Assembly: GCA_030679035.1 (NCBI GenBank)
Contig: JAUXTH010000147.1
Span: 1 to 37,950 of the forward strand
Source: Methylobacter sp.
Lineage (GTDB): Bacteria > Pseudomonadota > Gammaproteobacteria > Methylococcales > Methylomonadaceae
Direction: 5' to 3'
DNA: 37,950 nt
Below, one piece after another: positions 2,607-34,218 of this stretch; within the stretch, counting starts at the first letter, position 1, and each line of letters begins with the position of its first letter. A program made the position numbers and the translations under genes. A model generated the notes under the pieces. It did not search any database and was not told the origin of the DNA. It saw nothing but the letters and a program-made list of their open reading frames with translations.

Positions 2607-2733
2607 GCTTCTCGGCAACTGCTCCTGCCTCCATGCAGTCGTGGATCCCGGCACAAATTTGTTTGGAACAGATTTGCATTAACCCGAAGGGCGTCAGGCA
2701 GGATAGCCTGACGTGAGTTCATGCCGGGATGAC
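2607..2733. repeat. Composite dispersed repeat (tripartite palindrome)
   Basis: The left part (2607-2643) matches a family seen also at 29465-29510, 26041-26110, 7731-7761 and 37918-37950. Its minus-strand core is close to TGCATGGA...GGAGCAGTTGCCGAG. The right part is a palindrome: ATCCCGGCA (2645-2653) pairs with TGCCGGGAT (2722-2730), and inside it CGTCAGGC (2692-2699) pairs with GCCTGACG (2705-2712). No coding capacity is apparent, so it is probably a non-autonomous mobile palindromic element. Confidence 0.7.
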
Positions 2734-7460: not shown

Positions 7461-7765
7461 AGACTCAAGCCAAGCTCGGGCAAATATTTGTCGGCTTTTA
7501 ACAGAGAATTTACCCGGATTGTAGAAAGGAGTGAGGGATCCAATTGCATGCGGCAAGTACAAAAATGTAGTAGTAATAAGGTTATTTATGTTATTAAATG
7601 CAGTGCGTCGTGGCAATAGATGAATTTTTTGAACGGGTACATGACTATATTATCGGAAGTTTGATAAAAATAAACTGGCGAACCAGGGTTTCTAAAGGAT
7701 CGCAAGGCCTTGTTAGCCGAAATAATTAACTGACGACTGCATGGAGCAATTACCGAGGAAGAATA
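7461..7765 (+). other. Leader region of the PAS-chemoreceptor pair, ending in a repeat fragment
   Basis: 305 bases without a gene. From about 7665 to 7757 there is a structured-looking stretch: GGCGAACC, then CGCAAGGCC, then a possible 7-base-pair stem TTGTTAG/CTGACGA, then TTACCGA. These recall pieces of the cyclic-di-GMP-I (GEMM) riboswitch, but its second helix does not form well. The last part, 7731-7761, matches the dispersed repeat seen inside mxaC and at 2607-2643 and supplies the GAGGAAG ribosome site of the next gene. Confidence 0.35.
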
Positions 7766-15777: not shown

Positions 15778-17718
15778 ATGACTTTTTTTACACCCGCTAC
15801 AGTAGGCAATTACTTTAAAAAAACGTGCCTGCTGATTTTTCTGATTGGTTTTTTCGGCGCCGCATCGGCCAAAGAACATCACTTTCTGGTTCTCAATTAT
15901 CACGACATCGTCGGGGCGGAAGGCGCTAAACCGCCTTTTAATTCAATGGATGTCAGTGTCGATCACCTTGAAGAGCATCTGGGCTGGTTGAAAAAAAACG
16001 GCTACAAGATTGTCAGTGTGCAAAATATTCTCGATGCAGCAGCGGGGAAAGAGGCATTACCCGATAAAGCCGTGCTGTTAACCTTTGATGACGGCTATCT
16101 GAGTTTTTATACTCGAGTCTTCCCGTTGTTAAAAAAACATCATTATCCGGCAACGGTTGCGCTGGTGGGTACCTGGATGGACGGCAACGTCACCGCCGAG
16201 GAGCCGGGCAAGCCCTTGCTCAGCTGGGCGCAGGTAAGAGAAATGGTGCAGTCCGGTTTGGTCGAGGTCGCCTCGCACAGCTACGACCTGCATAAAGGCG
16301 TGAACGCCAACCCGCAAGGCAGTTCGCAGGCAGCGGCGGTTACCCGGCTGTACGACGATCCGATGCTGGTTTACGAAACCGATGAGCAGTATCGTGAACG
16401 TATCAATGCCGCTATGTTGAAAAGCGCCGAGTTTATCTTCCAACATGCCGGCGTCAGGCCCAGGGCGATGGTTTGGCCGTACGGGGAATACAATCAAATC
16501 GCCGTGCAGGCTTCGCGTGAAGCCGGAATGCCGATGACGATGGGGCTGGTTGACGGCTCCAACACGCTGGCGGATATAAGCGCCTTGCGCCGTTTGATTA
16601 TGGTCGATAATCCCGATGTCAATCAATTTGCAGAAATTGTTACCGGGCTGCGGGCTGACAGACCTCTGCGGGTAGCGCATCTGGATATGGATTATCTCTA
16701 CGATGAAGACCCCGAGCAAACCGAGCATAATCTGGATGCGGCGATTCAGCGCATCAAAGACATGCACATCAATACCGTTTATTTGCAGGCCTATGCCGAC
16801 CCTGACGGCGACGGCAATGCCGATGCGTTATATTTCCCCAATCGCCATTTGCCGGTAAAACAGGATTTGTTCAGTCGTGTTGCTTGGCAATTAAAGACAG
16901 TAGCCAGAGTTAAGGTTTATGCCTGGATGCCGATTATGGCTTATCAGGGCAAAGCGCCGGAATCCTGGTATGTCCAGGAATGGCGGGACGGCAAGGCGCA
17001 AAAGGCCTCTCATATATATACCCGGCTGTCGCCGTTCAATCCTGAAGCCCGTCAGTATGTGGCTGAAATTTACGAGGACTTGGCCAAGCATTGCAGTTTT
17101 GACGGCATCTTGTTTCATGACGACGGCATCTTGTCGGACTATGAAGATGTATCCCCGCTAGCGTTAAGCTTTACCAAAGAGGCGTGGGGCCTGCCCGATC
17201 AATTTGAAAAGTTGCATGCGACCAGCAAGCTGCGCATGGCTTGGGCGCAACATAAAACCGAGCTGATTAATCAATTTACCGATGAGCTGGCCAGCCGGGT
17301 GCGTATTTATCGGCCCGGCATAAAGACCGCGCGTAATTTTTATGCGCTGCCTTTGTTAAAGCCCTACAGCGAAGAATGGTACGCCCAGTCTTTTACCTCC
17401 TTTTTGGCGCATTACGATTACGTTGCGATTGAAGCCATGCCGTTTATGGAAGAGGCAAACAATCCCAAGCAGTGGCTCACACAATTGGTAAAAACAGCGG
17501 CCAAACAGCCTGACGGCCTTAAAAAAACCGTGTTCGAGCTGCAATCTGTCAACTGGAAAACCCAGCAGAAAATCCCGATGCCGGTCTTTATCGAACAGCT
17601 GGAGTTACTGAAAAAATTGGGAGCCAATCACATCGGTTATTATCCGGACAATGTGTTTGAGGATCAGCCGCGCTTGAGCGATTTACAACAACATTTTTCA
17701 CTGCCTGTCTCGCCGTAG
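15778..17718 (+). CDS. pgaB: Poly-beta-1,6-N-acetyl-D-glucosamine N-deacetylase PgaB
   Basis: The ATG at 15778 gives about 646 residues with a signal sequence (GNYFKKTCLLIFLIGFFGAASA); an in-frame TTG at 15745 is an alternative. PgaB partially deacetylates PNAG in the periplasm so the polymer can be exported for biofilm formation. The N-terminal carbohydrate-esterase-4 domain has LTFDDGY (metal-site Asp pair) and ASHSYDLH. The C-terminal glycoside-hydrolase-like domain has LQAYADPDGDGNADALYFPN and FHDDGILSDYED. The TAG stop lies inside the inverted repeat at 17715-17777, so that element defines the C-terminus. pgaC follows; no pgaA porin gene is present. Confidence 0.93.
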   Translation: MTFFTPATVGNYFKKTCLLIFLIGFFGAASAKEHHFLVLNYHDIVGAEGAKPPFNSMDVSVDHLEEHLGWLKKNGYKIVSVQNILDAAAGKEALPDKAVLLTFDDGYLSFYTRVFPLLKKHHYPATVALVGTWMDGNVTAEEPGKPLLSWAQVREMVQSGLVEVASHSYDLHKGVNANPQGSSQAAAVTRLYDDPMLVYETDEQYRERINAAMLKSAEFIFQHAGVRPRAMVWPYGEYNQIAVQASREAGMPMTMGLVDGSNTLADISALRRLIMVDNPDVNQFAEIVTGLRADRPLRVAHLDMDYLYDEDPEQTEHNLDAAIQRIKDMHINTVYLQAYADPDGDGNADALYFPNRHLPVKQDLFSRVAWQLKTVARVKVYAWMPIMAYQGKAPESWYVQEWRDGKAQKASHIYTRLSPFNPEARQYVAEIYEDLAKHCSFDGILFHDDGILSDYEDVSPLALSFTKEAWGLPDQFEKLHATSKLRMAWAQHKTELINQFTDELASRVRIYRPGIKTARNFYALPLLKPYSEEWYAQSFTSFLAHYDYVAIEAMPFMEEANNPKQWLTQLVKTAAKQPDGLKKTVFELQSVNWKTQQKIPMPVFIEQLELLKKLGANHIGYYPDNVFEDQPRLSDLQQHFSLPVSP

Positions 17719-17777
17719 GGGCAATCCCTTGTGGTTGCCCACAGTCAGCTAGGGCAACCACAAGGGATTGCCCCTAC
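17715..17777. repeat. Perfect 26-base inverted repeat, GTAGGGG family
   Basis: The arms 17715-17740 and 17752-17777 are perfect reverse complements of 26 bases, beginning GTAGGGGCAATCCC, with an 11-base loop. The same element occurs at 24746-24816, in hybrid form at 31308-31380, and as a single arm at 34191-34216. It fills the pgaB-pgaC gap and provides the pgaB stop codon. Confidence 0.95.
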
Positions 17778-24745: not shown

Positions 24746-24816
24746 GTAGGGGCAATCCCTTGTGGTTGCCCTGATAGGCGCCGGCATCAAGGGCAACCAC
24801 AAGGGATTGCCCCTAC
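24746..24816. repeat. Perfect 26-base inverted repeat between mxaK and mxaL
   Basis: The arms 24746-24771 and 24791-24816 are identical in sequence to those at 17715-17777, with a 19-base loop TGATAGGCGCCGGCATCAA. It occupies most of the mxaK-mxaL gap, in an operon whose preceding genes overlap by four bases. Confidence 0.95.
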
Positions 24817-24824
24817 AATGTTAA

Positions 24825-25385
24825 TCAAGGCAAGCCGCGCGGAAACCCCGGCACTGTCGTCCACAACTGCGATTTCTGCTTTGTGGGTTCGTCGTCAGGC
24901 ATATCGACCCTGTCCATTTCCGGCAATAGGCGCATGGCGACTTCAAGGTTGTATTTGGCATCCCAGTCGCGGCTGTTTAATGCCAAAGACTGCCGGTAGG
25001 CCTGTTTTGCCAGTCCTGCCAAGGGCATTGCTTCGTTGATATTCATGGCTTTTGCCTGCTGTATGGCTTGCTCCAGATACAGGTTGCCGAGGTTGTAGCG
25101 GGCTTTGGCCTGGAAGTTCCGGCCGCCTTTGTCCATGATCAGGCTGAGGGTCGATAAGGCCTCATCGTAGCGGTGTTTTTGCTTGAAATAAAAAGCCCGC
25201 GCCAGTCTCAATTCCGGCTCGCCGCTGATCACTTTATTGACGGCCACATCTTTTCCCGAAATCAATTGCCGGATTAAGTCATTGTCGTGATGAATGCCGT
25301 ACAACGCGCCGGCGTTGTAAACGAAAGCCGCTAAGCTGGCCGCCAACGCGCTCCACAGCGTGATATGCCTGATTGTTCTTATCAT
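24825..25385 (-). CDS. mxaK: MxaK, methanol dehydrogenase maturation protein
   Basis: 186 residues, ATG 25385 overlapping the mxaC stop by four bases. One N-terminal membrane segment (TLWSALAASLAAFVYNAGALYG) is followed by a periplasmic helical part with TPR-like phrases (LRLARAFYFKQKHRYDEAL, ARYNLGNLYLEQAI, GLAKQAYRQSLAL). Mutants in mxaK lack calcium-loaded MDH in methylotrophs. The identification rests on position between mxaC and mxaL plus this architecture. Confidence 0.9.
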   Translation of the reverse strand: MIRTIRHITLWSALAASLAAFVYNAGALYGIHHDNDLIRQLISGKDVAVNKVISGEPELRLARAFYFKQKHRYDEALSTLSLIMDKGGRNFQAKARYNLGNLYLEQAIQQAKAMNINEAMPLAGLAKQAYRQSLALNSRDWDAKYNLEVAMRLLPEMDRVDMPDDEPTKQKSQLWTTVPGFPRGLP

Positions 25386-26458
25386 CGTTTGACCTCAAAA
25401 AATTTAACGCCGAATAGAACCAGCAGCAGGAAAGCCGCTACGCCGTAGCAGACTGCCGACAAATCCTGTTTGGGGATGCGTTCGAAATAGTGCATGGGCA
25501 GGTTTTCCAGCTTGTTGATGTCGGCAATCGCCTGTTTTAACGCGTCCGGGCTTTCCGCTTCATAAGCCTGATAGGGACTGCCCAGCCCCAGAAAAAACTT
25601 GTGCAGGTACAGTTCGGGCATGGCCCCAGCGTTGTCGTCCCGGCTGTCTTCAGGCTGATCGAAAATGCCGGGGCTGCCTGCGGTGCGCAGGAAAATCCAG
25701 TACAGGCGGACTTGCTGTTGTTTAAACCATTCGCGCAATTTCTGTTCGCTGTCGTGATCGATCGCCGCCGCCCCGTCTGAAACCAGCAGCACGATACGCG
25801 AGCCGGTAACCGGTTGTTGTTCGAAAAACGAGATGGCCATCCCTAAGCCTTTGCTGACATGGGTAAAACCTAGCGCCGGTGTCGCGGTCGCCGCAATCGC
25901 CGCTTGCACGGCGTTTTTGTTTTCAGTCAGCGGCATCACGAATAGTGGCGAAGTGCTGTATTCCGCGACCCCGATTAAATCGGTTTGCCGCTGTTTGACA
26001 AAATCGGTCAATAAGCGCCGCGCCGCCGTGGCTTTGGATTCCTCGGCAATTGCTCCATGCATTGCTCTCGGCAACCGCTCCATGCGTTGCTCTACCTTCC
26101 CCATCCTTGGGGGCGTACCTCCGGCATCCTTGCCGTCGTCCACGCCGTTCGGTGCGCGTCCGGCGAATGTGTTATCCATGCTGCTACTGCGGTCGAGCAA
26201 TAGTACGATATGTGCGCCGTGGCCGATCCTCTCCCGGCTTTGTTCGGTGCGATGCAGGCCCGCCATGCCCAGCACTAATCCGGCGATTGCCGCGACGGCG
26301 CACAGCCGCAAGCAGCAGACGACAAAAGCCGACAGCGTGTCGCCGGGTATCAACGCCGTCCACGGAGCGGGGCTGGTACGCATACCGCTATTGAACAGCG
26401 GCAATAGGGCCAGTAACAGGCCTGTCAAAGCCCAAGGGCTATTAACCGCCCAATTCAT
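25382..26458 (-). CDS. mxaC: MxaC, VWA-domain methanol dehydrogenase maturation protein
   Basis: 358 residues, ATG 26458 overlapping mxaA by four bases. N-terminal membrane segments (WALTGLLLALLPLF and RLCAVAAIAGLVLGMAG) precede a VWA domain with metal-site motif LLLDRSSSMD (Asp89, Ser91, Ser93) and IVLLVSDGAAAI. A final membrane segment lies at about 337-354. Residues ~106-138 form an extra, low-conservation segment (VEQRMERLPRAMHGAIAEE at its end) whose DNA matches the dispersed repeat family at 29465-29510. The insertion lies just after the metal-site loop. MxaC acts with MxaA, K, L in calcium loading of MDH. The reading frame is intact, so the protein is probably made. Confidence 0.92.
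   Translation of the reverse strand: MNWAVNSPWALTGLLLALLPLFNSGMRTSPAPWTALIPGDTLSAFVVCCLRLCAVAAIAGLVLGMAGLHRTEQSRERIGHGAHIVLLLDRSSSMDNTFAGRAPNGVDDGKDAGGTPPRMGKVEQRMERLPRAMHGAIAEESKATAARRLLTDFVKQRQTDLIGVAEYSTSPLFVMPLTENKNAVQAAIAATATPALGFTHVSKGLGMAISFFEQQPVTGSRIVLLVSDGAAAIDHDSEQKLREWFKQQQVRLYWIFLRTAGSPGIFDQPEDSRDDNAGAMPELYLHKFFLGLGSPYQAYEAESPDALKQAIADINKLENLPMHYFERIPKQDLSAVCYGVAAFLLLVLFGVKFFEVKR
26041..26130. repeat. Dispersed repeat captured in frame inside mxaC
   Basis: On the mxaC coding strand this segment contains GGTAGAGCAACGCATGGAG then CGGTTGCCGAGAGC, matching the copy at 29479-29512 with two differences. The 25-base unit CGGCAAYYGCTCCATGCRTTGCTCT is duplicated in tandem (26044-26068 and 26069-26093, three differences). 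The frame of mxaC stays open across it. Confidence 0.75.
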
Positions 26459-29380: not shown

Positions 29381-29395
29381 TTTAGTTTAGTGCTA

Positions 29396-29547
29396 GTTCC
29401 CAAGCTCCAGCTTGGGAATTCGGTAGTGGAAGCTCAAGCTTCCAGTCTCACGAAGCTGCGACTGCATGGATGCAGGAGGTAGAGCAACGCAGGGAGCAGT
29501 TGCCGAGAGCTTCGTCCTCTGGGTTCCCAAGCCGGAGCTTGGGAACC
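29396..29547. repeat. Composite palindromic repeat between mxaI and mxaR
   Basis: Three hairpins: GTTCCCAAGCTCCAGCTTGG at 29396 onward, the palindrome TGGAAGCTCAAGCTTCCA at 29427-29444, and GTTCCCAAGCCGGAGCTTGG from 29523. Between the second and third lies a copy (29465-29512) of the TGCATGGA...GTTGCCGAG repeat. The short frames here are repeat translations, not genes. Confidence 0.9.
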
Positions 29548-29626
29548 AGCGTAAAAAAGGGCATAAGATACAAACAGACTCACAAAGGGGACGGAAAGTG
29601 GAATGCATTTATGCCCAAAACAATGG

Positions 29627-31307: not shown

Positions 31308-31380
31308 GTAGGGGTAATCCCTTGTGGTTGCCCTATCTCTATCGGGGGCGAAATAAGGCGGGCACAAGACCCGCCCCTAC
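31308..31380. repeat. Hybrid GTAGGGG-family repeat between mxaF and mxaJ
   Basis: The left arm (31308-31334) is the GTAGGGG...GGTTGCCC arm with one change from the copies at 17715 and 24746. The right part (31355-31380) instead ends GGGCACAAGACCCGCCCCTAC and can form its own short hairpin (GCGGG/CCCGC). Only the terminal GTAGGGG/CCCCTAC still match as inverted repeats. It starts four bases after the mxaF stop codon. Confidence 0.9.
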
Positions 31381-34183: not shown

Positions 34184-34190
34184 TCACGGT

Positions 34191-34216
34191 GTAGGGGCAA
34201 TCCTTGATGGTTGCCC
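34191..34216. repeat. Single arm of the GTAGGGG repeat
   Basis: 26 bases, GTAGGGGCAATCC then TTGATGGTTGCCC, closely matching one arm of the elements at 17715 and 24746 but with no second arm. It lies in the 35-base gap between the convergent response-regulator gene and mxaD. Confidence 0.85.
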
Positions 34217-34218
34217 TT

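Follow-up and report, generated by a model that had tools for sequence, protein, structure and literature searches.

A methanol dehydrogenase gene cluster of Methylobacter sp. contains an mxaC-type gene with a 96-bp insert, and this insert very probably consists of two units of a non-autonomous, GTAG-bearing, REP-like element of 48 bp, one unit (element B) having entered the other (element A). The element is widespread among methane-eating bacteria, is probably moved in trans by a Y1 transposase and would be tolerated in the reading frame. MxaC is not special as a host, since the set of copies read includes in-frame ones in 26 more genes by the rule given below. Coordinates are given for the window (i.e. 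the whole stretch of 37,950 nt that was analysed) and are collected in Table 1.

Table 1. Features of the mxaC-type gene and copies of the 48-bp element in the window
Feature	Position	Strand	Basis or remark
mxaC-type ORF, VWA domain	25382..26458	minus	358 aa, open throughout; VWA_2 domain match
DRSSS metal-site motif, residues 89-93	26180..26194	minus	translation
96-bp composite insert (element B within element A), residues 107-139	26043..26138	minus	homolog comparison; 32 net residues
Element A, left 23 bp	26116..26138	minus	comparison with SV96 insert
Element B, all 48 bp of the unit, with CCCC/GGGG stem	26068..26115	minus	follows GGAGGTA of element A
Element A, right 25 bp	26043..26067	minus	left and right joined equal the SV96 mxaC insert, letter for letter
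Complete 48-bp copy in mxaI-mxaR gap	29459..29506	plus	repeat pattern match
Internally deleted copy, 23 bp, CGACTGCATGGAGCAATTACCGA	7734..7756	plus	window repeat comparison
Internally deleted copy, CGACTGCATGGAGGCAGGAGCAGTTGC	2615..2641	minus	window repeat comparison

We take the ORF to be mxaC from gene order: the genes around it encode MoxJ and MoxG equivalogs, an AAA_3 (MoxR-type) protein and a DUF58 protein. mxaC presumably has a role in building methanol dehydrogenase. An earlier note, made from the letters of this DNA, had placed an in-frame repeat in an essential step of this assembly. The frame is indeed open throughout, but MxaC may or may not be essential, because a different contig of this genome bears a second PQQ alcohol dehydrogenase family match, with a higher score (752 vs 675 bits). 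The DRSSS motif is of the MIDAS type. The insert starts about 12 residues past DRSSSMD, ahead of the next predicted helix, and the extra residues fall between DRSSSMD and ESKATAARRLL, a stretch that varies in length among homologs. Two AlphaFold2 models of MxaC are of poor quality (mean pLDDT 50.2 and 48.9), and 4rck_A is the sole PDB match at E 0.01; placement of the insert in a loop is based on the 4rck_A alignment and on the varying loop length among homologs.

Comparison of 19 loci from named genomes (18 of them with MxaC; the other, L079, has the repeat between genes) bears out the claim that a repeat has added about 30 residues near the metal-site motif, and the alignment gap that this claim predicts was found. 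The insert is absent in 15 of the 18 relatives (14 proteins of 326-329 aa and the 332-aa protein of M. psychrophilus), so the residues are not conserved in most of these MxaC homologs; a 48-bp insert (16 residues) is present in M. tundripaludum SV96 and Ca. M. oryzae KRF1 (both 342 aa), and a 96-bp insert (32 residues) in Ca. M. titanis (358 aa, as in the window). A wider search gave some match to MxaC in 110 out of 121 genomes, although weak matches need not be MxaC; the matches in the genus outside insert-bearing genomes are split into about residues 1-110 and 138/139-358. M. psychrophilus MxaC (L074 / L048) has six extra residues at the position of the insert, resembling the left end of A, which are perhaps a deletion remnant of element A, or due to chance.

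Removal of element B from the window insert leaves exactly the SV96 mxaC insert, and the right flank is also the same. The earlier note had described a repeat plus a tandem 25-base duplication at residues ~106-138. Its position was right, with the boundaries now moved to residues 107-139, and the tandem exists (26042-26093), but it is the right half of B adjoining the right half of A: the insert is two 48-bp units, one nested in the other, and the duplication is a by-product of this nesting. The match between mxaC and the mxaI-mxaR gap is as first reported (26064-26097 aligns with 29477-29510 read on the opposite strand, 34 bases with two mismatches), and lies within a longer match of 60 nt at 80%. 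On both sides of the copy in this gap, within 29392-29550, is a GTTCCCAAGCT..AGCTTGGGAA repeat. Another dispersed palindrome, GTAGGGGCAATCCCTTGTGGTTGCCC, occurs in the window at 17715-17777, 24746-24816, 31308-31334 and 34190-34217, and in two cases forms a perfect inverted pair. Of these pairs, the one at 24746-24816 has the mxaK-type gene on one side and the mxaL-type gene on the other, where it overlaps the TTG listed as the start of the mxaL-type gene.

Copies from the same genome define a discrete unit of exactly 48 bp, CGACTGCATGGATGCAGGAGGTAGAGCAACGCATGGAGCAGTTGCCGA, with a tandem spacing of 48 bp. Each unit has two hairpins with GGAGGTAGA between them. GTAG is at unit positions 21-24 and is followed by a stem (26-32/38-45) with a bulged A at position 40; 20 bp of the unit, with the second hairpin, precede GTAG, so that GTAG is internal. 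Folded as single-stranded DNA, the consensus, A and B have z-scores of -3.06, -3.84 and -2.95, respectively, with two hairpins. Stem pair 30-41 shows a compensatory change, being CG in 71 of 124 cases and TA in 50, and pair 6-15 is GC in 114, CG in eight and AT in one; pair 9-12, in the first stem, is poorly kept (71 out of 124). At 73 non-nested noncoding sites, A is at position -1 in 88% and G is at +1 in 86%, and no target duplication was found either at the sites compared with empty relatives or in the site set. Its length is 16 codons and five of the six frames have no stop (the consensus frame +0 holds the TAG of GTAG), so insertion of the unit keeps the reading frame.

The Methylobacter genome studied here has 34 pattern matches vs none for the reversed pattern, far above chance, as the proposal of a dispersed repeat would have it. 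With up to three mismatches, and in genome sets that each include this genome, the unit is found in 20 out of 23 genomes of the genus (336 places in total, with precise ends), 35 out of 91 of the family and 22 out of 274 of the class; one of the latter 22, from another family, has 20 copies. The reversed pattern gave no match among the genomes listed from the genus, family and class sets. For one genome (G021), five of 42 places were among the matches listed, and copies of later genomes were read only where retrieved as loci. Several intergenic copies share another repeated context (e.g. GGGTGA|GGGGAAAT). Six identical copies of one genome (G156; L382-L387) are all in the context TTCAA|GGCGCGCAAA, which suggests that the element is carried there by a larger repeat.

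The element frequently lies in or beside its own copies. Among 128 sites with 60 bp of flank, 23 are nested or in tandem: 11 are head-to-tail tandems, eight are nested after GCAGGA and four after GGAGGTA. CCCC/GGGG units of the B type also follow GGAGGTA at other loci. In a nitrogenase-type gene and a SAM-methyltransferase gene the outer element is found alone at some loci (L258, L166) and with an inner element at others (L163, L143); the nesting position differs from that in MxaC, and the pattern is of the same kind.

We collected 184 distinct copies (loci L031-L078 and L110-L117 excluded), of which 179 had the required 30 bp of flank, giving 129 independent sites. A copy was counted as lying in an ORF if at least 40 open codons were found on both sides and the codon score was above 15; these thresholds are our choice, and training of the codon table was limited to 14 ORFs of the window. 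By this rule 31 independent sites are inside 27 genes (MxaC and 26 others). Twenty of the 31 sites are read in frame +1, six in +2, four in -0, one in -2 and none in -1; the last two frames, cysteine-rich and hydrophobic, respectively, are thus almost missing. The target preference, when applied to the 14 window genes, raises the share of open-frame insertions expected in +1 from 20% to 35%, so that it predicts 11 of the 31 sites by itself (20 observed, P 0.0008; for non-nested sites, 14 out of 21, P 0.003). The bias is due partly to the target preference, with the remainder probably due to the loss of bad insertions. Outside the genus 44 copies were read: all three scoring above 15 are in +1 (in an ATP synthase alpha/beta-type protein, a Fic protein and a helicase), and two lower-scoring copies (L348 and L374) are in +2.

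Pfam families could be assigned to 36 of the 38 host ORFs scanned (some with scores of 15 or below), and the hosts are named after these families. Those among the 31 sites include LeuRS, ValRS, UvrA, UvrC, UvrD, RecC, RelA/SpoT, a sigma factor, a Mur ligase, PurL (two insertions), CoaBC, nitrogenase-type proteins and an M3 peptidase; HypF, MurB, MurG, D-Ala ligase, FliK and one Mur ligase scored 15 or below and are outside the 31. For 16 host proteins we looked for empty sites, using their flanks without the element, in six genomes of the genus. 81 out of 98 rows were used, the other 17 being weak or split, and some of these (HypF in G011, UvrA in G008 and RecC in G018) look occupied. An exact empty site (a straight match with no extra residues) was found in at least one relative for 14 of the 16 genes; MurG and the M3 peptidase had none in the six genomes. 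Relatives with exactly 16 more residues are G011 for UvrD and G020 for UvrC, although G020 is probably itself a source of the tested UvrC copy. The M3 peptidase has +18 in G019 vs +2 in the five other genomes, and other unclean sites are MurG (-5 and -9), the sigma factor of G019 (+14), and the glyoxalase and RecC matches of G019, which cross the query pieces (-7). In a MurG-type gene (L196:454-1710) the element lies within what appears to be another in-frame repeat (PPSPPFSKGG...PFEKG).

The element would probably move as single-stranded DNA by means of a trans-acting Y1 (HUH, IS200/IS605- or TnpA-REP-type) transposase. Lack of target-site duplication and insertion 3' of a short target are features of the IS200/IS605 family, and both are seen here: the element inserts without duplication, mostly 3' of A and 5' of G, and often into or beside its own copies. 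Inside a gene it would add a short peptide without a frameshift; copies read as DCMDAGGRA.HGA.A would be tolerated best, as a hydrophilic loop of the host protein, and would persist. For MxaC, we infer that element A entered the variable loop which joins the metal-site motif to the helix after it, that B then entered A, and that the protein has continued to function.

Linkage to a Y1 transposase was considered as evidence of a partner and rejected. We inspected Y1 loci of the own genome (12 Y1_Tnp matches, eight of them as loci) and of the genus (30 loci obtained with one RAYT-like query): the element is at three out of 38 loci (with some duplication, L114 and L314 being one place) vs two out of 56 control loci, i.e. 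there is no enrichment. At one locus (L113) a variant copy (1174-1221) is about 190 bp from the gene of a 147-aa Y1 transposase (1411-1854); this gene has CCCCCGG-containing inverted repeats on both sides, and the nearby copy is below the threshold of the locus count.

Several other explanations of the insert were weighed. The 25-bp tandem could be taken as a local duplication or an assembly artefact with no mobile element behind it; this is already contradicted by the precise ends of the element at so many places in the genus and by the presence of the MxaC insert in other assemblies, and its probability is negligible. A loop encoded by the repeat might also be adaptive, altering the partner or metal binding of MxaC and being kept by selection: it is close to the metal-site motif, stays open and is present in three of the 18 named relatives. 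But the same peptide is found in unrelated enzymes, close relatives do without the insert, and codon changes in the insert are six nonsynonymous to two synonymous vs 36 to 117 in the remaining mxaC (Fisher P 0.004 with two genome pairs pooled; 0.016 and 0.11 for the single pairs, with few events). The insert thus looks less constrained than the remaining gene, although the numbers are small, which argues for tolerance and not for a new function, and we consider an adaptive loop quite improbable.

The 32-residue form could instead have arrived in MxaC as a ready-made composite, transferred by recombination, with no transposition of B into A in this gene. Composite-like matches (74-96 nt, 90-95% identity) occur at four other places of the own genome, B-type units follow GGAGGTA elsewhere, and V/S and K/R differences beside and within A cross with the presence of B. 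The exact identity of the window insert without B to the SV96 copy, right flank included, speaks against this, as do the outer-alone and outer-plus-inner forms of the nitrogenase-type and SAM-methyltransferase genes in different genomes; we regard such a transfer as unlikely, if less so than an adaptive loop. Insert-bearing genes are not grouped in the mxaC tree made without the insert, and its starred branches require two or more switches between a 96-bp and a 48-bp label in the four labelled rows; the tree of the 1.2 kb beside the insert is nearly unresolved and compatible with one origin, with L064 as an outlier. Given the ungrouped insert-bearing genes and the crossing differences, the explanation by a mobile element needs recombination, precise loss or repeated insertion in addition.

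It is conceivable, although we would rather doubt it, that the element is adapted to life inside genes, its 16 codons, stop-free hydrophilic main frame and self-nesting landing sites having let it spread through essential ORFs. If so, the proteins of many Gammaproteobacteria, MxaC included, would be a safe genomic reservoir for a mobile element. The element is a counterpart of the Rickettsia palindromic elements (RPEs) in free-living bacteria, such as Methylobacter. Some free-living bacteria with the element are in culture, and the occupied and empty alleles of close relatives make movement of the repeat and tolerance by proteins directly testable. 'Indels' of 16 residues in the enzymes of methanotrophs, maturation factors of methanol dehydrogenase among them, may be mobile DNA and not functional differences.

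No paper on the 48-bp repeat was found among the matches listed from the open-licence literature, and a full-text search of this literature with stretches of the repeat's letters gave one unrelated paper. GTAG REPs, as described by Di Nocera et al. 2013 (PMC3733652), are mostly intergenic; some are in ORFs (e.g. in genes for tRNA synthetases and UvrD/REP helicase, in uvrA and in recBCD), and many of these hosts are DNA synthesis and repair genes. The main text of that paper has no match to 'methylo'. The element shares with the GTAG REPs of this account a short, dispersed and palindromic form, a GTAG on the 5' side of a stem-loop, alternative complementary stem residues and a mainly intergenic location with some copies in ORFs; it differs in its 48-bp two-hairpin unit and one favoured reading frame, and in its head-to-tail and nested copies, where head-to-head dimers are usual (PMC3733652). 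GTAG is in the middle of the unit, whereas it is terminal in classical REPs, and a RAYT transposase flanked by the repeat, a trait of the GTAG REP superfamily, is not seen at the Y1 loci inspected.

Three other systems were compared by their descriptions in the sources cited. PARCELs (PMC2996958) are likewise palindromic protein-coding repeats of patchy distribution, but have a motif of 25 residues that forms tandem arrays and is often found in proteins targeted to membranes, whereas the element has 16 codons and is mostly single and in housekeeping enzymes. IS200/IS605 elements have guide tetranucleotides 5' of palindromes, and TnpA-REP substrates a 5' GTAG and a bulged stem (PMC8266576); the hairpins and the GTAG 5' of a bulged stem are shared, but the unit has no transposase gene and none is linked to it. 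RPEs, the classic in-frame insertions, are about 150 bp long and found in Rickettsia (review PMC10969869), whereas our element is 48 bp long and found in free-living bacteria; both are, as described, palindromic, dispersed and in frame in unrelated genes with a conserved peptide. The recurring reading frame of RPEs is also found here, above the expectation from the target. Because GTAG REPs can be intragenic, RPEs are in frame and the bulged GTAG stem is alike, we consider the element to be comparable to the known GTAG REP, RPE and TnpA-REP kinds.
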